A DNA stretch of 64,000 nt, from the NCBI GenBank assembly GCA_012519205.1, contig JAAYQR010000004.1, forward strand, positions 1 through 64,000, read 5' to 3'. The notes beneath the pieces were generated by a model. That model was not told the DNA's origin. It was given only the letters and a program-made list of their open reading frames with translations, and ran no database searches. Of the stretch, positions 1-56,331 are shown in pieces. This DNA is from Candidatus Epulonipiscium sp. GTDB lineage: Bacteria > Bacillota > Clostridia > Lachnospirales > Defluviitaleaceae. Numbering within the stretch: position 1 is the first letter of the stretch; every line of letters starts with the position of its first letter. Position numbers and translations under genes: made by a program.

Positions 1-27
1 CTGAGCCAGGATCAAACTCTCATGTTA
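1..27 (-). rRNA. rrs: 16S ribosomal RNA, 5' end only
   Basis: Positions 1-20 are the exact reverse complement of the universal bacterial 16S primer site 8F-27F, so the gene is on the minus strand and leaves the window at base 1. By analogy with E. coli numbering the mature 5' end is near position 27. Only these first bases are present. The promoters and leader at 100-280 belong to this operon. Confidence 0.93.
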
Positions 28-102
28 ATATCCTTTGCAAGATGATGCTTGCGTTTTGAAATCTTTTATACAATTCTTTAAGAATTGATGGGTTTGGTTT
101 GT

Positions 103-123
103 GCTGTTTAGTTTTCAAGGATC
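103..123 (-). promoter_or_regulatory. rRNA leader boxA-like antitermination element
   Basis: Read on the minus strand the segment contains CTTGAAAACTAAACAGC, which resembles the TTTGAAAACTGAACA element common in leaders and spacers of Bacillus and Clostridium rRNA operons. It lies between the 16S start and the upstream promoters. The role as an antitermination or processing site is inferred from family knowledge. Confidence 0.5.
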
Positions 124-154
124 AACGGCTACTTTCTTTTTGCCGACAAAATAT

Positions 155-183
155 ATCATAACATTTTTTGTACAACCTGTCAA
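155..183 (-). promoter_or_regulatory. rRNA promoter P2 (sigma-A type)
   Basis: On the minus strand TTGACA (183-178), a 17-base spacer and TATGAT (160-155) form a near-consensus vegetative promoter firing toward the 16S gene. It is the nearer of two tandem promoters, as is usual for rRNA operons in Firmicutes. Confidence 0.8.
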
Positions 184-248
184 TCATTTTTCTAATTACA
201 TTTTATTCCATTAATGTTTGTTTGTCTTAAATTTTTGCTGCGAAAATT

Positions 249-277
249 ATTATATACAAAAAACTAATCCATGTCAA
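249..277 (-). promoter_or_regulatory. rRNA promoter P1 (sigma-A type)
   Basis: On the minus strand TTGACA (277-272), exactly 17 bases, then TATAAT (254-249): a perfect consensus promoter. It points toward the 16S gene and lies about 95 bases upstream of the second promoter. The rest of 280-390 is AT-rich and shows no gene. Confidence 0.85.
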
Positions 278-391
278 TATAATTTCTCATTTTTTACTTT
301 TATAGAGCAATTTCGATGGGGTAGTTAGAATTACTAGTTCTTTCTAAATTATAATCCTTAATAACTCTTTCTTAAATAAATAAACTTATGG

Positions 392-397
392 TATAAT
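392..397 (+). promoter_or_regulatory. -10 element for the 437-850 gene
   Basis: A TATAAT hexamer lies 40 bases before the start codon of the downstream gene. The -35 at the right spacing (TTCTTA, 369-374) is weak, so this is a tentative promoter, diverging from the rRNA operon. Confidence 0.4.
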
Positions 398-436
398 AGA
401 CTTAAGGTAAAAACATGTTTAAGAGGAGTGACCCGT

Positions 437-850
437 ATGTCTGATCTTAGAAGTACTATAACTGATGAATTCCAGTATACAGTAGAAAATCTTTTGGTTC
501 GAAATAAAAGTATATTAGATCAAATTACAAAGTACCAGGATTCCTGTTCCCGTGTTAATCGAAATATCGTTAAAGCAACTACCCATTGTGGCTGTATTAA
601 AATTCTCGCTGACAAACAAAAATATCCAGATAATGATTCCGATTTTTCATTAGAAGATCTAAAACCTATGATGAATGACCATATACAGGGCGATTTATGT
701 GAAAACTGCCGTGACCTAATAGAAAAAGAAATCGGTAGAAATTTATTTTATCTCGCCTCTTTATGCAATACCTTAGACTTAAATCTATATGATATTATTA
801 TTAAAGAATTAAATCGGGTTCGCATGTTGGGAAAGTTCACATTACGGTAA
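437..850 (+). CDS. conserved clostridial protein with paired CxC / CxxC motifs, function unknown
   Basis: A 137-residue soluble, mostly helical protein. It has a cysteine pair in 'THCGCIKI' near residue 54 and a second pair in 'LCENCRDL' near residue 93, which suggests a metal or redox site. The sequence strongly resembles a conserved protein of Clostridia that databases label as a domain of unknown function (I recall DUF1573, not certain). ATG 437 is chosen over the in-frame GTG 428 because the ribosome binding site AGGAG (424-428) is 8 bases before ATG 437 and overlaps the GTG. The gene stands alone between the rRNA promoters and a strong bidirectional terminator. I cannot assign a function. 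Confidence 0.75.
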   Translation: MSDLRSTITDEFQYTVENLLVRNKSILDQITKYQDSCSRVNRNIVKATTHCGCIKILADKQKYPDNDSDFSLEDLKPMMNDHIQGDLCENCRDLIEKEIGRNLFYLASLCNTLDLNLYDIIIKELNRVRMLGKFTLR

Positions 851-875
851 ATGACACAAATCTTTTTGGTATAGT

Positions 876-903
876 TTTATGGGCGAATTAATTCGCCCAT
901 AAA
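876..903. terminator. bidirectional terminator, perfect 28-base palindrome
   Basis: A perfect palindrome centred at 889/890 with the GC-rich arm GGGCGAATT and flanking A/T runs on both sides. It separates two convergent genes (437-850 plus and radA minus) and can terminate both. Confidence 0.8.
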
Positions 904-915
904 TATTTTAATATA

Positions 916-2274
916 TTATCTTAATATAATTTGAAGAGCTTCACTAACATTCTCCACCCCGTATACTTTTATACCATCTACCTTTTTCATTCCCCTTAGG
1001 TTAGCCTTTGGTATAACACAGGATTTAAACCCCAATTTAGCTGATTCTATTACTCTTTTTTCTGCCATACTTATCCCTCTTATTTCTCCTGTTAATCCTA
1101 TTTCTCCAAACACTACCATGTGAGGATCTATTGCTTGGTCCTTAAAACTAGAAGCAATCGCTGCAATTACTCCCAAATCAATGGCAGGTTCGGTAATCTT
1201 GATTCCCCCTGCTAAGTTTACGTAGCTATCATAGCTTATTAATTGCATCCCCACCCTTTTTTCCAGTACCGCCATTAAAAGAACTACCCTATTATAATCT
1301 ATACCCGTCGCTGTTCTTCTCGGCATTCCAAAATTAGTAAAGCTCACTAGGGCCTGTACTTCTACTAACATAGGTCTTGTCCCTTCCATGCTGCATGTGA
1401 CAACGGAACCTGAAACATTAAAGGGTCTTCCTGCTAACATCAGCTCTGAGGGGTTCTTTACCTCTGCTAATCCCTTATCTTGCATTTCAAAAACTCCAAT
1501 TTCATTAGTCGAACCAAAACGGTTTTTAACCGCTCTTAAAATACGATAGGCTGCATGCCTTTCTCCTTCAAAATATAGTACTGTATCCACCATATGTTCT
1601 AAAACCCTCGGCCCTGCAAGAGATCCTTCTTTTGTCACATGGCCTACAATAACGATGGATATGTTTTGATCTTTTGAAATTCTCATTAAACTTGAAGTGG
1701 CTTCTCTAACTTGGCTCACACTCCCCGGCGCCGATGTTATCTCTTCTCTAAAAACTGTTTGTATTGAGTCTATTATGACTAAATCAGGCTTACTACTACT
1801 TATTACTCCTTCTATTAAGTCTATATTGGTTTCTGATATAAGGAGTAAATTTTTTGTAGCTACTCCTAATCTGTCAGCTCTCATCTTAATCTGTCTAATG
1901 GATTCTTCTCCTGAGGCATACAGTATTTTGCTTCCTTTTTCTCCTATATATTCACACATCTGCAGCAGCAAAGTGGATTTTCCTATTCCCGGATCCCCCC
2001 CTACTAACACCAAGGAACCCTTTACTATCCCTCCCCCTAATACTCTATCCAATTCTCCTGCCCCGGTTAATATTCTCTCTTCTTTGTCAATTCCTATATC
2101 TTCTAATATCACTGGGTTAAGTTTTATATTGGTCTTAGATTGAATAGATGCCTTTTTAGCTACTATTTCTTCAACAAAAGTACTCCACTCATTACAGCCT
2201 GGGCACTTTCCAAGCCATCTTGGGGATTCATATCCACATTCTTGACATACATAAACATTTTTTGTTTTCGCCAT
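916..2274 (-). CDS. radA: DNA repair protein RadA/Sms
   Basis: A 452-residue RecA-like ATPase that helps process recombination intermediates and acts as a branch-migration helicase. Residues 10-27 form a CxxC...CxxC zinc finger (C10, C13, C24, C27). A Walker A motif GGDPGIGKS is at about 92-100, and the RadA signature KNRFG follows the ATPase core. The C-terminal third is the Lon-protease-like domain, including 'GEIGLTGEIR'. Length matches the family (about 450-460). In many Firmicutes radA lies beside clpC-mcsB-mcsA, as here, separated only by one small gene. Identification is secure. Confidence 0.97.
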   Translation of the reverse strand: MAKTKNVYVCQECGYESPRWLGKCPGCNEWSTFVEEIVAKKASIQSKTNIKLNPVILEDIGIDKEERILTGAGELDRVLGGGIVKGSLVLVGGDPGIGKSTLLLQMCEYIGEKGSKILYASGEESIRQIKMRADRLGVATKNLLLISETNIDLIEGVISSSKPDLVIIDSIQTVFREEITSAPGSVSQVREATSSLMRISKDQNISIVIVGHVTKEGSLAGPRVLEHMVDTVLYFEGERHAAYRILRAVKNRFGSTNEIGVFEMQDKGLAEVKNPSELMLAGRPFNVSGSVVTCSMEGTRPMLVEVQALVSFTNFGMPRRTATGIDYNRVVLLMAVLEKRVGMQLISYDSYVNLAGGIKITEPAIDLGVIAAIASSFKDQAIDPHMVVFGEIGLTGEIRGISMAEKRVIESAKLGFKSCVIPKANLRGMKKVDGIKVYGVENVSEALQIILR

Positions 2275-2308
2275 ATTATCTTCCTTTTTTCTATTGATAT
2301 AAATCTAT

Positions 2309-2335
2309 AAAGCACATCTATTATAGATGTGCTTT
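2309..2335 (-). terminator. terminator after the 2340-2753 gene
   Basis: A 12-bp stem AAAGCACATCTA / TAGATGTGCTTT with a three-base loop sits immediately downstream of the minus-strand stop at 2340 and upstream of radA. The flanks are T-rich. It separates radA from the clp side. Confidence 0.7.
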
Positions 2336-2339
2336 ATTA

Positions 2340-2753
2340 TTAGCCTAATTTTTCTATTTTAATGTCTTTCTCCCTGCCATTAAGTTCAACACTAAATGTT
2401 ACTTTCCCTGCCAGACTTGATTTTACCTTTCCTACCTGCACATTTTCAATAAATATTTTATAATCCTTTTCAGGTTCTAATTCCATAGTAATTTGGGCAT
2501 CCTCTTCCCCCTCCACAGAAAATGAAACAAGTTTCTCATTCATATTAAAATAGTGAACTGTTGTCCCAGGGACTGATTCATATAATAAAATGCCGTTCTT
2601 TTCTAGCTTTGTAATCTTATTATATGTTTTTACTTTATATAAGTCGCCATCTACTTCAAAATCCAGCACTTTCTTTTTTGTTTCCATTAGATGGTTCCCA
2701 AAGCTTATGGTCTTATCATCTTCTACACGTATTAACTCTCTAATAACTGCCAC
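2340..2753 (-). CDS. conserved small beta-rich protein ('endosialidase' family label)
   Basis: A 137-residue soluble protein with no signal peptide or cysteine, beginning 'MAVIRELIRVEDDKTISFGN'. Similar clostridial proteins carry the database label 'endosialidase' or 'endosialidase chaperone'. That label looks unreliable: there is no neuraminidase Asp box and the protein is too short to be an enzyme of that family. The alternating hydrophobic pattern predicts mainly beta strands. It has its own terminator and sits between clpC and radA. Function unknown; the gene itself is convincing from codon use and conservation. Confidence 0.72.
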   Translation of the reverse strand: MAVIRELIRVEDDKTISFGNHLMETKKKVLDFEVDGDLYKVKTYNKITKLEKNGILLYESVPGTTVHYFNMNEKLVSFSVEGEEDAQITMELEPEKDYKIFIENVQVGKVKSSLAGKVTFSVELNGREKDIKIEKLG

Positions 2754-2858
2754 ACTCGTAACCCCCTAGACTAATTATACTTTATTTCATTATACCTTAT
2801 TTTACTCATTAATTCCATCGAAAATCTATATTCTAAAATTTACACAAAAAATTCATGC

Positions 2859-5303
2859 CTAGAGTTTTATAAAGGACAATTTTTCATCTTCTAAGTCAAT
2901 TTTTATACTGTCATTTTCTTTGATTTTGCCATCTAAAATCTGCTCTGCCATCTCATCTTCAATCTTTGATTGTATTGCCCTTCTTAGAGGCCTAGCCCCG
3001 TAGGCTTGATCAAATCCTTCTTTAGCTAAATATTCCTTGGCAGTCTCAGTAATTTCTATGGCAATACCCATGTTTTGTTTTATTCGTTTTGCCAGTTGCC
3101 CAATCATAATGGATACAATATTTTTAATATCTTCCCGATCTAGAGGATGGAATACTATCATCTCATCGATTCTATTTAAAAATTCAGGCCTAAATATCCT
3201 TTTTACTTCATCCATTACATTCTTCTTCATGTCTTCATAGTCTTTTGCTACATTATCCACGGAAGTGAAACCTAATCTTTTTGGGGCAATAATATTCCTC
3301 GCTCCAATATTAGAGGTCATAATGATAACTGTATTTTTAAAATCAATTCTTCTTCCCTGAGCATCTGTTATATGACCATCGTCCAATACTTGAAGAAGGA
3401 TATTAAATACATCGGGGTGTGCTTTTTCCACCTCGTCAAAAAGGATAACTGAATAAGGCTTTCTCCTTACTTTTTCACTTAGTTGTCCACCTTCGTCATA
3501 TCCCACATATCCCGGTGGGGAACCAATTAACTTAGATACACTATGTTTTTCCATGTATTCCGACATATCAATGCGTATCATCGAATTCTCATCCCCAAAT
3601 AGAGCCTCAGCTAAAGCTTTAGTAAGTTCTGTTTTACCAACTCCAGTTGGCCCTAGGAATAAGAAAGAACCAATCGGCCTATTGGGATCTTTTAGCCCTA
3701 CTCTCCCTCTCCTTATTGCCTTCGATACTGCCTTTACCGCTTCTTTTTGACCTATAACCCGTTTATGAAGAATTCCTTCCATATTTCTTAGGCGTTCGCT
3801 TTCCTCTTCGGCTAATTTGCGCACAGGTATTCCAGTCCAACTAGCTACAATATCTGCAATTTCATCCTCTGTAACCACTTGCGCTGATTTTGTATGACTG
3901 TCTTTCCAATTGTTTTTTTCATCTTCCAGTTGTTTTTTAATTTCATCTTGTTTCTTTTTAATTTCCCCCGCTTTTTCAAACTCTTCTGTTTTAATAGCTG
4001 CTTCCTTTTCTTTTTCCAATTCTTCTAACTTTTCTTCTAGCTCCTTAACATTGGGGGGTGCTGTAAAAGTACGAAGCCTTACCCTCGAAGCCGCTTCATC
4101 AACTAAATCAATTGCTTTATCCGGTAAAAACCTGTCGGTTATATATCTGCTTGATAGTTTTACAGCTGCTACAATGGATTCATCTGTGATATGGACTTGG
4201 TGGTGGGCTTCATATTTATCTCTTAATCCCTTTAGTATTTCTATTGCCTCGTCTTCCGTTGGTTGTTCTACTTTCACCGGCTGAAAACGGCGTTCCAAAG
4301 CCGCATCCTTTTCAATATATTTTCTATATTCGTCTAGGGTTGTAGCCCCTATTACTTGGATTTCTCCCCTAGCCAAGGAAGGCTTTAATATATTAGAGGC
4401 ATCAATTGCCCCTTCTGCAGCCCCCGCCCCTATTATTGTATGAAGCTCATCAATAAATAGTATTACATCTCCTGATGTACGGATTTCATCTAATGCCTTT
4501 TTTATTCTTTCTTCGAATTCCCCTCTATATTTGGAACCTGCAACCATTGCAGATAAATCAAGGGATACAACCCTCTTATTTTTTAGAATTTCTGGGATAT
4601 TGCCTTCTACTATTTTTTGTGCCAAACCTTCTGCTATGGCTGTTTTACCTACTCCTGGTTCTCCTACAAGACAAGGGTTATTTTTAGTTCTCCTACTTAA
4701 TACCTGAATAACTCTTTCTATTTCCTTATCCCTTCCTATAATCGGATCAAATTTCTGTTCCGTTGCCATTACAGTTAGGTCCCTGCTAAATTGATCTAAG
4801 GTAGGGGTATCTGATTTGCCTGTCCTTCTTCCCTGCTTACTCATTGGCGTTCCATCTTGAGATTTTTCCCCTTCTCCTAGCATGCTCATAATGTCATCAT
4901 ATATTTTTTGGGGATTAATTCCTAAACTACTAAGTAGTTTTATTGCTATCGAATCTGGTTCTCTAAGAAGGGCTAAAAGAAGGTGTTCCGTACCTATATA
5001 TCCTGTTCCCATTTTCAGTGCTTCCCTAAGGCTCATTTCTAAAATTCTTTTGGCCCTAGGTGTGAAGTCCTGTGGCTCTGCTGTCACCACATCACCGCTA
5101 CCAATAACAGATTTCAGCTTATCTACTATATCCTTTTCCGAGACCCCTTGGTTTTTTAATGCCCTTTCAGCCACGCTATCTTCTCCGCGGATTAAGCCTA
5201 ATAATAAATGCTCAGTACCCACATATCCATGCCCTAATTCTGCTGCTGCTATTTGAGAAGCCTGTAATGCCTCATGGGCCCTTTTTGTAAATTTTCCCAT
5301 CAT
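2859..5303 (-). CDS. clpC: ATP-dependent unfoldase ClpC (Hsp100)
   Basis: An 814-residue class I AAA+ chaperone that unfolds substrates and feeds them to ClpP. It shows two N-terminal Clp repeats (about 1-150), D1 with Walker A GEPGVGKT and Walker B ILFIDE, a UVR/coiled middle domain (about 410-460) and D2 with Walker A GPTGVGKT. The loop 'KRLGF' in D2 is the ClpP-docking tripeptide region. ATG 5303 is chosen because AGGAGG at 5314-5319 lies 10 bases upstream; the earlier ATG 5312 is only one or two bases from that site. ClpC proteins normally begin M(F/M)G(R/K)FT. It is the last gene of mcsA-mcsB-clpC; McsA and McsB are its adaptors and substrate markers. Confidence 0.97.
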
Positions 5304-16749: not shown

Positions 16750-16785
16750 AGTCAATGCCTGACAATATTAGGCATTGACTATTTT
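16750..16785. terminator. bidirectional terminator between aroF-like gene and hydE
   Basis: Stem AGTCAATGCCT / AGGCATTGACT (16750-16760 and 16770-16780) with a nine-base loop, then ATTTTGCT. It lies between convergent genes and overlaps the last codons of hydE. Confidence 0.75.
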
Positions 16786-17823
16786 GCTATATAATGCATT
16801 ATCTCCTCTAGATAAATCCACATGAAAACCAGCGTTTTCAATTCTTTTCTCAATGCATTTTCTGCACTCTGCTGCCTCATCTCCAGTACATATCTTTCCA
16901 TCATAAAGGGAATATTTCTCCCTTATACCGATGGGGGATAAATTGGGCATTACTACATTGGCCCCTGCCCTTAAAGCCTTTTCCCTTCCTGTTGCATCTA
17001 AGGTTCCTAGGGCTGTGGTTGCCGGTAATAAGACACTAGGGAGTAAAAGACGAATAATCGCAAGCAGTATAACAGTCATTTCGGTGGTTCCTCCTTCTTT
17101 CTTGGAAAGGGAAGTTTCCTTATGAGGAATAAACGGACCAACTCCTACCATATGGGGATTAAGTTCTTTTAAAAATCTTAAATCCTTTATATAATGCCCA
17201 TAGGCCTGGTCTGGAAGTCCTACCATAAACCCTGCCCCCACCTGGTATCCTATTTCTTTTAGATTCCATAGACATTTTATTCTATTTTCAAAATTGCCCT
17301 TTGGATGAAGAGTTTCATATAGTTTCTTATCTGCTGTTTCATGTCTTAGAAGATATCTGTCTGCCCCTGCGTCATAATATCTTTTATAGGATTCATAGGA
17401 TTTTTCTCCTATTGAAAGGGTTATTGCACATTCAGGGTATTTATTTTTAATGGTATATACCATTTTTAATATCTTTTCATCGTTATAATACCTATCTTCT
17501 CCCCCTTGAAGTACAAAGGTTTTATATCCTAAGTTATAGCCTAGTTCACAGCATTCAAGGATTTCTTCAATGGATAACCTATACCTGTCCACGTTTTTAT
17601 TGGAAGCCTGAATTCCACAATATACACAATCTCTGCTGCAATAATTTGTAAATTCTATTAACCCCCGTAAATATACCTTATCCCCATAATATTTTTCCCT
17701 AGTCTTCCTAGCCTTTTCCTTTAAATATTTAGTATTCTCTTCATCTATACCCTTAAAAAGTTTAAGTAATTCCCCATCATCTAAATTATTAAGTTCATAT
17801 AATTTATCAATTAAACCTTTCAT
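16768..17823 (-). CDS. hydE: [FeFe]-hydrogenase maturase HydE (radical SAM)
   Basis: A 351-residue radical SAM enzyme that helps build the 2Fe subcluster of the hydrogenase H-cluster. The radical SAM motif CxxxCxxC is at C62, C66 and C69. The glycine-rich 'LQGGED' and 'GFMVGLPDQ' fit HydE. A second, optional cluster motif CTGDEAAECRKC is present near the C-terminus. ATG 17823 is chosen because it overlaps the upstream stop in ATGA and has GGGGGTG before it. It is the last gene of an operon otherwise concerned with lipids and glycosyl transfer; hydF and hydG are not in this window. A hydrogenase-like sensor lies at 25423-27333. Confidence 0.92.
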   Translation of the reverse strand: MKGLIDKLYELNNLDDGELLKLFKGIDEENTKYLKEKARKTREKYYGDKVYLRGLIEFTNYCSRDCVYCGIQASNKNVDRYRLSIEEILECCELGYNLGYKTFVLQGGEDRYYNDEKILKMVYTIKNKYPECAITLSIGEKSYESYKRYYDAGADRYLLRHETADKKLYETLHPKGNFENRIKCLWNLKEIGYQVGAGFMVGLPDQAYGHYIKDLRFLKELNPHMVGVGPFIPHKETSLSKKEGGTTEMTVILLAIIRLLLPSVLLPATTALGTLDATGREKALRAGANVVMPNLSPIGIREKYSLYDGKICTGDEAAECRKCIEKRIENAGFHVDLSRGDNALYSKIVNA

Positions 17824-18473
17824 AAAGCACCCCCGGTATTTTCCCATTGCTCCATTACGGTTCTAACCTTTATCCTTTGTTCTATGAATTCTTTTTTTAA
17901 ATCCTCTTTATTTACTTCTACTGGTTCATGAATACATACTTTTATTTCATTAAAGGGAAACGGAATAACAAATTTATCCCACCTTTTGTTTAAGGATATT
18001 TTTCTTCTTACCCTGATGGATAAAGGTACAACTCTTCTTTTAGAAAAGAGAGCAACTGCGAAAGGAAAGATTTTAGGTTCATGAAAAGGCCCTAGGGGGC
18101 CATCAAAGGTAATTGCCACACTGGAGTTCGCCTCTTCCCTAATGATACTCCTAATCTTCAGAAAAAAATTCCCCCCCGATGGTTCATCTGGAACACGAAT
18201 AGGCACATAACCAAAACTTTTACATATATTTGATATATAATTTCCCCTAGGGTCTTTGGTGGTAACTACACACAGCCGCTCTCCTTTTAATAAAGGGTAA
18301 AAAGAATAGCTAGAACCATGCCAAAATGAAAAGATAAACTTTTCTTCATGATTGGATTTAAGGTATTCACCATTACCGCTTAACTCAATTTTACTAGTAG
18401 CATAAACCAAACGTATATAGACTATAAATATGACACTAATAATCTTTTGAAACAAATCATGTACTTTTTTCAT
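17820..18473 (-). CDS. DUF374 lysophospholipid acyltransferase-like protein
   Basis: A 217-residue protein of the DUF374/LPLAT superfamily, related to acyltransferases that add acyl chains to lipids. An N-terminal hydrophobic helix (about 8-25) anchors it; the acyltransferase-type motif is 'FSFWHGSSYSF' (about 48-58), followed by 'TKDPRGNYIS' and the DGPLGP loop (about 124-129), where the family usually has DGPRGP. It lies between the glycosyltransferase 18519-20771 and hydE with a stop/start overlap to the latter. Together with the flippase-like gene it suggests synthesis or modification of a glycolipid. The lipid substrate is unknown. Confidence 0.85.
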   Translation of the reverse strand: MKKVHDLFQKIISVIFIVYIRLVYATSKIELSGNGEYLKSNHEEKFIFSFWHGSSYSFYPLLKGERLCVVTTKDPRGNYISNICKSFGYVPIRVPDEPSGGNFFLKIRSIIREEANSSVAITFDGPLGPFHEPKIFPFAVALFSKRRVVPLSIRVRRKISLNKRWDKFVIPFPFNEIKVCIHEPVEVNKEDLKKEFIEQRIKVRTVMEQWENTGGAL

Positions 18474-18518: not shown

Positions 18519-20771
18519 TCAATCTAAACTTTTTCTAATAGAAAGAGCATTTTCTTGTTCCCTTATAGTCTTATGATATACCCTAGATGCTTTTTTTGCC
18601 ATTTCTTCGATAGAAAACCCTTTTGAGAAATCATATGCATTTTTACCCGTCTTAACCCTTAAATCTTCGTCTTCTACCAACTCTATTACCTTTTCTCCCC
18701 ATTCCTTGATATTTGCCTTTGTTTTGTATCCATTCTCGCCATCTATAATCATGTCATCGGTTCCACTAGAACGAACTGCAACTACTGGACACATTCCTGC
18801 CATAGCTTCTAGAAGAACCATACCCTGAGTTTCAGAACGGGATGCAAAGACAAAAATGTCAGAGGCTCTATAGTAAAATGCTATTTCCCTAGGTTCTACT
18901 TTTCCTATCAGTAAAATCGTGTCTTGTAGATTGTAGTCATCTATTACTTGTTGTAATTTTTGCTTTTCGGGCCCATCCCCTATAATAATGCATCTTACAT
19001 CTTTTTTAGTTTTTTCTCTAATATACTTGATACCATCTATAAGAAAGTATAAGTTCTTTTCTTTAGTCAATCTAGATACGGAACATAATAACACTTCATT
19101 TTCAACATACTTTTTCTTTATTTCTTTGACTCTTTCCATATTTATATTTTCATATTGTTCAAATTCAATCCCCGTCGGTAGGACTTCTATGGGTCTTGTC
19201 ACCCCTATATGTTCAAGATATTCCTTGGCACTTCCTGTCGGCGCAATGATTGTACTGCATCTTTGAGCAAACTTCCTTATTATTTTATGAGGAATCTTAC
19301 TTTTAAAAAGCTTACCACCAACCGGTAGATTATGAACATATTTTTCATATCTTGTATGGTATGTAAGAACCGTAGGAATATTATATTTCCTTGCAAGCTT
19401 CAGTCCCTTGTGGCCGATGCCAAAAGGATGATGGATATGAAGTATATCTATATTACGCATAGAAAATTCCTTTTCTATTTCTGGCAGGAAAACATTAACT
19501 ATAGGAAAATCAAATTGATTGGTTTCGTAGTATGTAATTAATTTGCATCTGACAACACTATCTTCATCGTCTTCCCATTTCTGGGGGTATTCTGGGGCAA
19601 ATATGTATACTTTATGGCCTTGTTTTCTAAGTCCCCTTGAAAGTCTTTCTATAGAAATTGGAACTCCTCCCACGAAAGGAAAATAATTATTTGTAAACAT
19701 TGCTATATTTAATTTTTCACCTTGATAGTCATCATCTTCCGAATAATCAAAGTCCCTATAATAATCAACTTCTCCTATGACCTTTTTATAAATGAACAGT
19801 ATTGCTAAAGACAATACAAATAATCCTATTAGAAAATTGATAAAGTTTATCTTAAACAATGAATAAAAATAAGCTGCTTTGCTACTTAAAACGCTCTTTA
19901 ATCCTTTTTCTTCTCCCTTGCCTATTTTCTTAACTTGACATTCAACCTTATCAAGAGAAGGCTTTACCTTAACATAATGATAAAAGCTATTTTGATTACC
20001 TAAAACAAGAGGGCCCCCTCCTCCGCCAGTGATGTAATAGGGGACCTCGTTGATTATTTCTTCGTGATACACCCCTATACTTGATGAAAATACCCCATTA
20101 ACTTTATATTTTGTAAAAGAATCCATTAAAAATTTACTATATGCCGCATCGGAAATATATAAATTATTATGTACAGGATAATCTATTTGATTTGGCTTAT
20201 AGGGCGATTTGCTTATAAATACAAATTTATTTTTATATTTATTTCCCTCTTCTAGCTCCCTTATAAGCCATTCTTTTTGCCAAGACATTGAAGTCTTTTC
20301 CGTAGCATCGATAAAAATATAATAACTATCCCCCGCACCAAAAGAAAAATATAGAGGACCAAAATATTCGTAAAATCTAAATGCACCTTCCCCCGATACC
20401 TCTCCTTCTCCTATAGCCATGACGAAAGGAACACCTAACTTATTGATACTTTTATTCAAAACCCTATATTTATTATTAGAACCATCTACTACAGCGTTAC
20501 CTGCAGAGATAACAAAATCTATATCATCATCCTTAATCGTTTTTATAATACGTTTATCAAATACCTCCACAGAACTTTTTATATTTCCTATTACTGCAAA
20601 AGTTATATCTTCTTTATTTTTGGATAATCCTTGTATTCTTTTAATATTACTATAGTTTAAAGAACATAAATCTGTATTAGAAAAATAAGTGCATACTCTA
20701 AAAGATATAAGTACCGCTAATATAGCTGCATTTGCCCATAAATAGACCCTTGTTTTCTGCCTATTTTGCAT
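18519..20771 (-). CDS. membrane fusion of a degenerate metallophosphoesterase domain and a GT4 glycosyltransferase
   Basis: A 750-residue protein with two membrane helices (about 10-30 and 305-327). Between them lies an outside domain of calcineurin phosphoesterase type in which every metal-binding motif is altered: FAVIGN for FxVxGD, SAGNAV for xxGD, AIGEGE for xxGNHD, ISKSPY for HKPP, and no GHxH. The cytoplasmic C-terminal half (about 355-740) is a family 4 glycosyltransferase with 'GGVPISIERLS' and the E-x7-E motif in 'SETQGMVLLEAMAG', similar to diacylglycerol glucosyltransferases. ATG 20771 has AGGAGG 8 bases upstream and lies inside the 3' end of the flippase-like gene. The outer domain probably binds rather than cleaves. 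Confidence 0.88.
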   Translation of the reverse strand: MQNRQKTRVYLWANAAILAVLISFRVCTYFSNTDLCSLNYSNIKRIQGLSKNKEDITFAVIGNIKSSVEVFDKRIIKTIKDDDIDFVISAGNAVVDGSNNKYRVLNKSINKLGVPFVMAIGEGEVSGEGAFRFYEYFGPLYFSFGAGDSYYIFIDATEKTSMSWQKEWLIRELEEGNKYKNKFVFISKSPYKPNQIDYPVHNNLYISDAAYSKFLMDSFTKYKVNGVFSSSIGVYHEEIINEVPYYITGGGGGPLVLGNQNSFYHYVKVKPSLDKVECQVKKIGKGEEKGLKSVLSSKAAYFYSLFKINFINFLIGLFVLSLAILFIYKKVIGEVDYYRDFDYSEDDDYQGEKLNIAMFTNNYFPFVGGVPISIERLSRGLRKQGHKVYIFAPEYPQKWEDDEDSVVRCKLITYYETNQFDFPIVNVFLPEIEKEFSMRNIDILHIHHPFGIGHKGLKLARKYNIPTVLTYHTRYEKYVHNLPVGGKLFKSKIPHKIIRKFAQRCSTIIAPTGSAKEYLEHIGVTRPIEVLPTGIEFEQYENINMERVKEIKKKYVENEVLLCSVSRLTKEKNLYFLIDGIKYIREKTKKDVRCIIIGDGPEKQKLQQVIDDYNLQDTILLIGKVEPREIAFYYRASDIFVFASRSETQGMVLLEAMAGMCPVVAVRSSGTDDMIIDGENGYKTKANIKEWGEKVIELVEDEDLRVKTGKNAYDFSKGFSIEEMAKKASRVYHKTIREQENALSIRKSLD

Positions 20772-21825
20772 TGATATAGCCTCCTGGAAAACCACTTTTA
20801 AACATTTCTTTATAAAATATAATACCGCCTATTACCATACCTATATAAACCGTAACAAACCTCCATGTAAAAGTTAAAGAGATAATATCCCCCCGTTTGA
20901 TAAAGTTTGAATAAATTAAGGTATACCCCCCTTCTGCAATTCCAGATGCTCCTGGAGTAATAGCAAAGTACATAATAAAAGTAATAAGGACCTGAAAAGA
21001 AATAATGCTTATAACAGGGATATGATATCCCAATCCATTAATAAGTACCACTGAAAAATAAAAAAGAGTAAATAAATATATAATGGCAAATCCTATAGAT
21101 AATAAAATATATTTCGGCTCTCCCTTAGCAAAACTTTTAATGCTATTTGAAAATGTATCTATTTCTTTATAAAGAGAACGGCTCCATTTTTTATTTCTTC
21201 TATTGCTGATTAATTTTTTTCTTTCCAAAAAATTAAAGCTACTAAATATTATTCCCTTAATAATTTTAGTTCGATAAATAAACTTATAACATATGTAAAT
21301 TAAAACAAAATATATAAAAATAATTAAAAAGACATATACAATTCCTCCGCCTTTTGAAAAGATATCAATCAAACTTTTTTCAGTAAATATAATTATGGGT
21401 GTCGTAATAAGAAAAAACACAGTAGCTATAACTGTTCTTATAGTAGTCGCAGCTGTAGAGTTTCCTATAGATATTCCTTTTTTATTCAAAAAATAAATCT
21501 GTGCAAAACCTCCGCCTGTAGCAAAAGGAGTAATATTAGATATAAATATATTTATGAAAACTAGTTTTAAAACATACAAAAAAGATATTTTAATATCCAA
21601 GGCACGGATAATATAAAAAAGCCTAAGAGCATCAAAAACATAATACATTATAAGCATTATACCAATAATATATAAAGTTTCATACCTAAACTTCCTTAAT
21701 TCAAGAAAGGAAGTACCGTCCCCAAAATGTTGATATAAAAATATTAAGGATAAAATAGAAGTTCCTATGAAAAAAAATGCAAATATTATATAGGCCCATT
21801 TCCTAGGTGGCACAATGTGAGTCAT
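20761..21825 (-). CDS. flippase-like membrane protein (LPG synthase TM-domain family)
   Basis: A 354-residue protein with about eight membrane helices. It belongs to the lysylphosphatidylglycerol synthase N-terminal/UPF0104 flippase-like family, recognised by 'NITPFATGGGFAQIYFLNKKG' type sequence near residue 105 and 'ITPGASGIAEGGY' near residue 297. There is no C-terminal aminoacyltransferase domain, so it is a flippase-like form as in AglD2-type proteins. AAAGGGG precedes the start. It opens the operon and overlaps the glycosyltransferase start; moving a lipid carrier or glycolipid across the membrane is a reasonable inference. Confidence 0.85.
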   Translation of the reverse strand: MTHIVPPRKWAYIIFAFFFIGTSILSLIFLYQHFGDGTSFLELRKFRYETLYIIGIMLIMYYVFDALRLFYIIRALDIKISFLYVLKLVFINIFISNITPFATGGGFAQIYFLNKKGISIGNSTAATTIRTVIATVFFLITTPIIIFTEKSLIDIFSKGGGIVYVFLIIFIYFVLIYICYKFIYRTKIIKGIIFSSFNFLERKKLISNRRNKKWSRSLYKEIDTFSNSIKSFAKGEPKYILLSIGFAIIYLFTLFYFSVVLINGLGYHIPVISIISFQVLITFIMYFAITPGASGIAEGGYTLIYSNFIKRGDIISLTFTWRFVTVYIGMVIGGIIFYKEMFKSGFPGGYINAK

Positions 21826-55533: not shown

Positions 55534-56331
55534 CTAATTAGATTTTGTAAGTTCCTGATACTTTGATTTCATCCTTATTAATTGGGCCTCATCTTCGGGC
55601 CTCGTTGAATCTACGGTTATAATTTTTTTCTCCGGATAGCAAAGAGCTCCAAGTTTTCCGCCGAATACACAGCCCAAATCAATGTCTAGGGTGTTATTAA
55701 TCCATATAGGTTTTAATATAGGGGTATGACCGTAAACAATCATAGCCCTGCCTGTATATTCCTTTGCCCAATCTCTTCTTATGGGATGACCTTCCTCATC
55801 TTTCCTTCCTGTTATATCTCCATATAAACAAAACTTATGGGTTCTTGGATCATCTCTTCCTACTAGGGATTGTTTAATACCCCCATGAACTACTATTAAA
55901 TCACCCTCATCTAGTATCCAGTAATGGGATTGTTTTTCGTAAAAATTAATATACTTATTTTTAAAGTTTTCTTTTTCTTCCCATGTGAGTTCATTGTATT
56001 CTTTTACCGTACCCTCTAATCCATGGGTGATTTGAACCTTCCTTCCTAATAAATATCTATAAAATTTATTACAGTGATTGCCATACACATATAAAGCATT
56101 GTTATTTTCAACCATATTAATGATAAGATTTATAGTTTTTAAGTTTTCAGGTCCCCTATCATTTAAATCCCCTAGGGATATAAGCTTTCTTCCCTTAGGG
56201 TGCATGTAACTTCCGTTTTTTTTGTGATACCCTAATTCTTTTAAAAGAATGCTTAATTCTTTATAGCATCCATGAATATCCCCTATAATGTCAAAAGGTC
56301 CCCTATCTTTGATATAAGTGTTTATTCTCAA
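55534..56331 (-). CDS. prpE: PrpE-like metallophosphoesterase (symmetrical diadenosine tetraphosphatase type)
   Basis: A 265-residue calcineurin-type phosphoesterase. All metal motifs are intact: GDIHGCYKE (about 18-26), LGDLNDRGP (about 51-59), YGNHCNKFYR (about 79-88), 'VVHGGI' and 'VYGHTPI' (about 196). The order and spacing closely resemble B. subtilis PrpE, which cleaves Ap4A asymmetrically or acts as a protein phosphatase and affects spore germination. The sequence 'GDIHGCYKELSILLKELGY' is close to PrpE. Adjacent to a sporulation-like cluster, but transcribed away from it. Confidence 0.9.
   Translation of the reverse strand: MRINTYIKDRGPFDIIGDIHGCYKELSILLKELGYHKKNGSYMHPKGRKLISLGDLNDRGPENLKTINLIINMVENNNALYVYGNHCNKFYRYLLGRKVQITHGLEGTVKEYNELTWEEKENFKNKYINFYEKQSHYWILDEGDLIVVHGGIKQSLVGRDDPRTHKFCLYGDITGRKDEEGHPIRRDWAKEYTGRAMIVYGHTPILKPIWINNTLDIDLGCVFGGKLGALCYPEKKIITVDSTRPEDEAQLIRMKSKYQELTKSN

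Follow-up and report, generated by a model that had tools for sequence, protein, structure and literature searches.

A glycosyltransferase joined to a predicted external pseudo-phosphoesterase domain and commonly encoded next to a putative flippase gene in Bacillota and Pseudomonadota

Genomic Context and Architecture of the Fusion Gene

The window, i.e., the whole stretch of DNA that was analyzed, comprises 64,000 nucleotides. On its minus strand we found a gene whose product combines a metallophosphoesterase-like domain and a GT4 glycosyltransferase (GT) in one polypeptide. The features of this locus are as follows:

20761..21825, minus strand: predicted MprF/YbhN-type flippase gene (LPG_synthase_TM, TIGR00374), overlapping the start of the fusion gene by 11 bp; conserved operon partner
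18519..20771, minus strand: fusion coding sequence, 750 amino acids, with the order TM1, pseudo-metallophosphoesterase, TM2, GT4 glycosyltransferase; stop codon at 18519-18521
20691..20747, minus strand: TM1 (residues 9-27), N terminus predicted inside from hydropathy and the positive-inside rule; kept in all fusions
19896..20672, minus strand: predicted external pseudo-phosphoesterase domain (residues 34-292) with a calcineurin-like/PAP fold that lacks the metal ligands
19788..19844, minus strand: TM2 (residues 310-328), followed by a conserved juxtamembrane YY motif (residues 337-338)
18534..19712, minus strand: GT4 domain (residues 354-746), predicted cytoplasmic, with E647 and E655 as the EX7E pair
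17820..18473, minus strand: DUF374 gene, lysophospholipid-acyltransferase-like (PF04028, 26.8 bits, at the gathering score)

The reading frame of the fusion is uninterrupted and starts with an ATG at 20771, with AGGAGG located 8 nt upstream; a longer version starting with a GTG at 20795 is possible. Membership of the C-terminal part in GT4 is indicated by the presence of PF13439 (residues 367-538, E = 1.7e-32) and PF00534 (residues 553-714, E = 2.5e-39), and both E647 and E655 are invariant across all fusions. Basic residues flank the two hydrophobic segments on their predicted cytoplasmic sides, and Y337-Y338, directly after TM2, is invariant among the fusions. The predicted topology, with the phosphoesterase domain outside and the GT inside, agrees with the sequence-only reading of this DNA, which had proposed two membrane helices with the same arrangement.

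The upstream gene is predicted to encode an MprF/YbhN-type flippase, as its product contains PF03706 and scores 111.7 bits with TIGR00374, above the cut-off of 43.2 bits. Downstream, the DUF374 gene and a HydE-like radical SAM gene overlap each other and together occupy 16768-18473. A deacetylase gene was absent among the neighbors of the fusion in the window (DUF374, radical SAM, and MATE-like genes).

Distribution of the Fusion

Orthologs with 62-63% identity were detected in two genomes of the window's family (G006 and G007), and a scan of the genome contigs revealed no other fusion. Using tblastn in plasmids, we found whole-length fusions in Halomonas and in three roseobacter genera; the spread among Proteobacteria is known from plasmid records only. 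A profile search of the phylum yielded three further fusions, and a search of the order of these three yielded 12 loci in ten genomes, 11 of them full-length. The resulting set contains 18 full-length fusions: the window, its two family relatives, 11 Halanaerobiaceae-type loci, Halomonas, and three roseobacter plasmids. Two genomes carry two fusion copies each: G791 (L103 and L106) and G797 (including L110 on contig C33).

A frameshift error, which had been raised earlier as a possible origin of the fusion, was rejected: the 750-residue frame is open, and whole-length fusions occur at 17 other loci, giving 18 in several lineages. Proteins of this architecture are annotated in the roseobacter records as "glycosyltransferase" only. 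A search of open-licence papers found no description of a fusion between GT4 and a pseudo-phosphoesterase, in line with the earlier remark that it resembled no described protein. The architecture is real, conserved, and apparently undescribed.

Fold of the External Domain

A Pfam scan of the N-terminal domain of the window protein alone gave no match, nor did hmmsearch with a three-sequence profile against PDB sequences. PF00149 was detected in the ortholog from G007 (E = 0.0011) and, above the gathering score, in two distant orthologs (L050 and L051); the phosphoesterase identity was also seen by alignment with intact enzymes and by fold. The AF2 model of the N-terminal domain, for which a 24-sequence alignment was used with four rows from annotated plasmid records left out, had a pLDDT of 89.8 and a pTM of 0.90. 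Its best structural matches are to purple acid phosphatases, Rv0805, GpdQ, and GAP50 (Z scores of 23-24), spanning 207-225 residues at 2.6-4.5 Å and Foldseek E-values down to 1e-11. The model of the full-length protein, built from three sequences, was poor (pLDDT 53) and was kept out of the fold search. Judging from the domain model and its structural matches, the domain is predicted to have the fold of the PF00149 superfamily.

The nearest relatives in sequence are stand-alone secreted metallophosphoesterases of Bacillota (L057-L078; 23-29% identity in full-length alignment). Unlike the fused domain, they have all seven metal ligands intact and no GT attached. Two intact metallophosphoesterases (L062 and L076) have a C-terminal TM helix and a short basic tail, and might serve as a model of the ancestor of the fused domain. 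The window itself contains a second, ordinary metallophosphoesterase gene at 55534-56331 (PF00149, 46.9 bits).

Loss of the Metal-Binding Site

The dinuclear metal site of this superfamily is formed by seven ligands (D, D, N, H, H, H, H), none of which is present in the window protein. Aligned with 18 intact relatives, the window protein shows the replacements D63N, D92N, N122E, H123G, H187S, H231S, and H233G, which bears out the earlier claim that all five metal-binding motifs had been lost. All 18 of the stand-alone relatives that the same profile detected have the complete set of seven ligands (D, D, N-H, H, H-x-H). It had been suggested to look for fusions with intact metal motifs; over the 18 fusions, the ancestral residue is kept in 1 of 126 ligand cells (the first Asp of the G007 protein), a count that overstates independence, as 11 of the 18 sequences come from one family. 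Ligand states were scored by aligned columns; a simple table of regex motifs gave false positives for some fusions. Apparent retention of the motif IV His in roseobacters ("GHPL") was rejected, as it lies one alignment column off.

The fusion domains form one clade (support 100/99), and thus a single loss before the radiation of the fusions is the simplest reading. Local decay in the window was rejected because the dead site is common to 18 fusions in several lineages. By its residues, the domain is a predicted pseudoenzyme of the metallophosphoesterase superfamily and not a catalytic member of it.

Constraint and the Rebuilt Pocket

The NG86 dN/dS of the phosphoesterase domain is 0.10-0.38 in three lineages, close to that of the GT domain (0.08-0.19); these values come from pairs with estimable dS and are approximate, dS being high in some pairs. 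The phosphoesterase domain is under purifying selection. The former ligand positions are 51% Asn and 2% hydrophobic. The corresponding shares are 6% and 44% in the remainder of the domain, and 4% and 40% when only the non-ligand residues of the ligand-bearing loops are counted. Asn occurs at positions 63, 92, 187, and 231 together in 12 of the 18 fusions, and N92 is found in all 18, spanning all lineages. S67, E124, and W164 are also fixed in the fusions and differ from most or all intact enzymes. H265, on the other hand, is invariant in intact enzymes too and is therefore probably structural. Motif III positions vary among the Halanaerobiaceae fusions, and the pocket is therefore not wholly under constraint.

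Such an Asn-rich, polar, and constrained replacement favors binding or docking over decay, and a non-catalytic role of the external domain is well supported. A binding or sensing role had been proposed earlier; the composition of the pocket and the dN/dS values uphold this proposal as far as binding or docking against decay is concerned, and do not extend to sensing as such, or to the lipid-linked product that had been suggested as the ligand.

The Flippase Partner and Other Neighbors

A flippase gene overlaps or adjoins the fusion gene upstream at 15 of the 18 loci. The pair is found in all 11 full Halanaerobiaceae loci and in the three roseobacters, where the genes overlap by 4 bp. Where two fusion copies are present (G791 and G797), every copy has its own flippase, and two Halanaerobiaceae genomes that are 99% complete (G792 and G794) have neither the fusion nor the flippase. 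At one of the duplicated loci (L110), a second flippase-like gene lies ahead in tandem. No such flippase was detected in the genomes of G006 and G007 at an E-value of 1e-5, and no flippase gene adjoins the Halomonas fusion; thus, the flippase is not obligatory for the fusion. It is nonetheless the strongest clue to function.

At one locus (L010, in G228), the GT is fused directly to a flippase and has no phosphoesterase domain. This GT is the nearest one without the domain and nests among the fusions beside that of the window in the GT tree (support 95/91). The frame (328-2670, plus strand, of 1..4173) encodes a 780-residue protein with a flippase-like membrane domain joined to the same GT4, a single chain comparable to MprF, and a DUF374 gene comes next. 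Up to three label changes are needed in the GT tree, and the tree reads best, with moderate support, as one fusion followed by losses.

By sequence likeness, DUF374 is also encoded downstream of the GT in G006, G007, L010, L011, and L012, which suggests a putative acylation step. A HydF-like GTPase gene follows in G006 and G007 (L091 and L092), and none is present at that place in the window. In L011-L013, related GTs are preceded by what reads from its sequence as a DedA-type membrane protein instead of a flippase; this protein may take the translocation role there.

Glycosyltransferase Family and Likely Lipid Product

The best NCBIfam family for the GT of the fusion is the MGlcDAG synthase (NF049988), with 203 bits, below the cut-off of 400 bits. 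The same family was best for every fusion scanned (176-213 bits), and GlcNAc-PG synthase was among the next best. Another GT in the window genome is more Mgs-like (324 bits), and therefore the sugar or the acceptor used by the fusion may be a different one in this organism.

In Halanaerobium praevalens, 43-47% of the lipid has been reported to be glycolipid, consisting of a single diacylglycerol derivative (PMC3156398). In the genome taken as H. praevalens (G615), we found no GT28 gene of the MGDG/UgtP type, with a positive control in B. subtilis, and the fusion is the only strong Mgs-like GT4. Since neither a GT28 MGDG synthase gene nor any other strong Mgs-like GT4 is present, we infer that the fusion is the leading candidate for the synthase of this glycolipid.

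Possible Function of the Fusion Protein

We propose that the fusion is a glycosyl-diacylglycerol synthase paired with a flippase, with an external pseudo-phosphoesterase that has a binding or docking role at the outer face, a reading to which we give about half of our confidence. The membrane-anchored GT4 domain would glycosylate a diacylglycerol or phosphatidylglycerol-type acceptor on the inner leaflet, and the MprF/YbhN-type flippase, whose gene overlaps the fusion gene upstream, would then take over the glycolipid and turn it to the outer leaflet. The external domain, having presumably lost both metals, would be incapable of the ancestral phosphoesterase chemistry; in place of the metal ligands, its pocket would be polar and lined mostly with Asn, on a fold that stays under constraint. 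It might bind the flippase itself or a lipid head group, be it that of a phospholipid or that of the glycolipid as it emerges, and binding at the outer face would keep synthesis and translocation together or mutually adjusted. The topology, lipid acceptor, partner, and ligand are inferred here, and the data fit head-group binding and docking alike.

Several other explanations should be considered. The protein could be a transmembrane sensor, in which binding of a head group carrying phosphate or sugar, or of free phosphate or polyphosphate, on the outside alters GT activity via TM2 and the YY motif, providing feedback on membrane composition. The polar rebuilt pocket with its invariant N92, S67, and E124 would fit such a role, as would the invariant tyrosines right past TM2 in a polypeptide that is predicted to span the membrane; however, the YY motif may merely anchor the helix, and close GT relatives without the domain presumably function, and we regard a sensor as possible but rather unlikely. 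We are similarly doubtful that the domain serves in docking only, as an adaptor that takes no small ligand and links the GT to the flippase or to some partner in the envelope. The operon overlap, the joint absence of fusion and flippase, the direct linkage of GT and flippase in a protein that lacks the domain (L010), and the fold match to GAP50 (Z 23.4) all argue for docking, but G006 and G007 have fusions without a flippase, none adjoins in Halomonas, and conservation includes old pocket positions such as N92. A further idea is that of leaflet coupling, with the dead external domain reading outer head groups and setting the rate of the cytoplasmic glycolipid synthase while the flippase exports the product. 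We offer it tentatively, as a rather unlikely case; if true, it would represent a direct sensor-synthase for membrane composition.

Retained catalysis, in which the domain would act on a lipid or glycan outside the cell by a novel mechanism that needs no metal, is very unlikely: conserved polar or acidic residues (E124, N92, and H265) are available in the pocket, but the seven metal positions are all lost, mostly to Asn, and the last of these residues is the one that is probably structural. Finally, a functionless spacer might persist simply because removal from the middle of a gene is hard, and both the absence of the domain from related GTs and the variable motif III of Halanaerobiaceae would be expected of such a relic. 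The selection result, a dN/dS far lower than 1 in three lineages, makes it very improbable; a confident predicted fold and derived residues that are invariant across phyla also argue against it.

In anaerobes such as H. praevalens, glycolipid can account for almost half of the membrane lipid. The fusion and the flippase offer a two-gene, culturable test of how synthesis and flipping are matched, in which the external domain can be altered separately. The fusion family also provides a clean bacterial case of a pseudo-phosphoesterase retained by selection after total loss of its metal site, in both Bacillota and Pseudomonadota.

Comparison with Known Systems

The likeness of the fusion to Mgs (NF049988) is limited to the GT domain, which is all that the 398-position model covers. 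In the PlcP-Agt pair, PlcP is a separate and active phospholipase C that supplies diacylglycerol. The fused domain differs from PlcP in being dead, external (as predicted), and joined to the GT. This pair likewise brings together a metallophosphoesterase-family protein and a diacylglycerol glycosyltransferase (PMC4796936, PMC8231724). GAP50 of Plasmodium uses a PAP fold as a membrane anchor (PDB 3tgh; PMC8949495) and matches our domain model over 225 residues at 2.6 Å (Z 23.4). It is eukaryotic, however, and has no GT fusion, and it has been reported to act as a phosphatase as well.

Probable functional parallels are found in two operons. HexS and HexF of C. difficile (hexSDF) are likewise a lipid GT encoded with an MprF-like flippase, and they make and are proposed to export aminohexosyl-hexosyl-diradylglycerol (PMC10128005). 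The operon has a separate deacetylase gene, hexD, whereas none adjoins the fusion in the window, and an external pseudo-phosphoesterase is not described for HexS in the relevant passages (PMC10128005). GpgS and GpgF of P. aeruginosa (gpgSDF) similarly combine a GT4 with an AglD2/YbhN-type flippase, but GpgS is predicted to be cytoplasmic and without TM segments, unlike the fusion (PMC12713373). The GT and the flippase of the window match the GpgS and GpgF models far below their cut-offs (NF053787, 82 vs. 480 bits; NF053789, 61 vs. 320 bits). Because of this low GpgS score and the lack of a deacetylase, the fusion was not placed with GpgS; instead of synthase, deacetylase, and flippase, as in the hexSDF/gpgSDF operon type, the locus has synthase and flippase only. 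The novelty with respect to HexS/HexF and GpgS/GpgF is the external pseudo-phosphoesterase.
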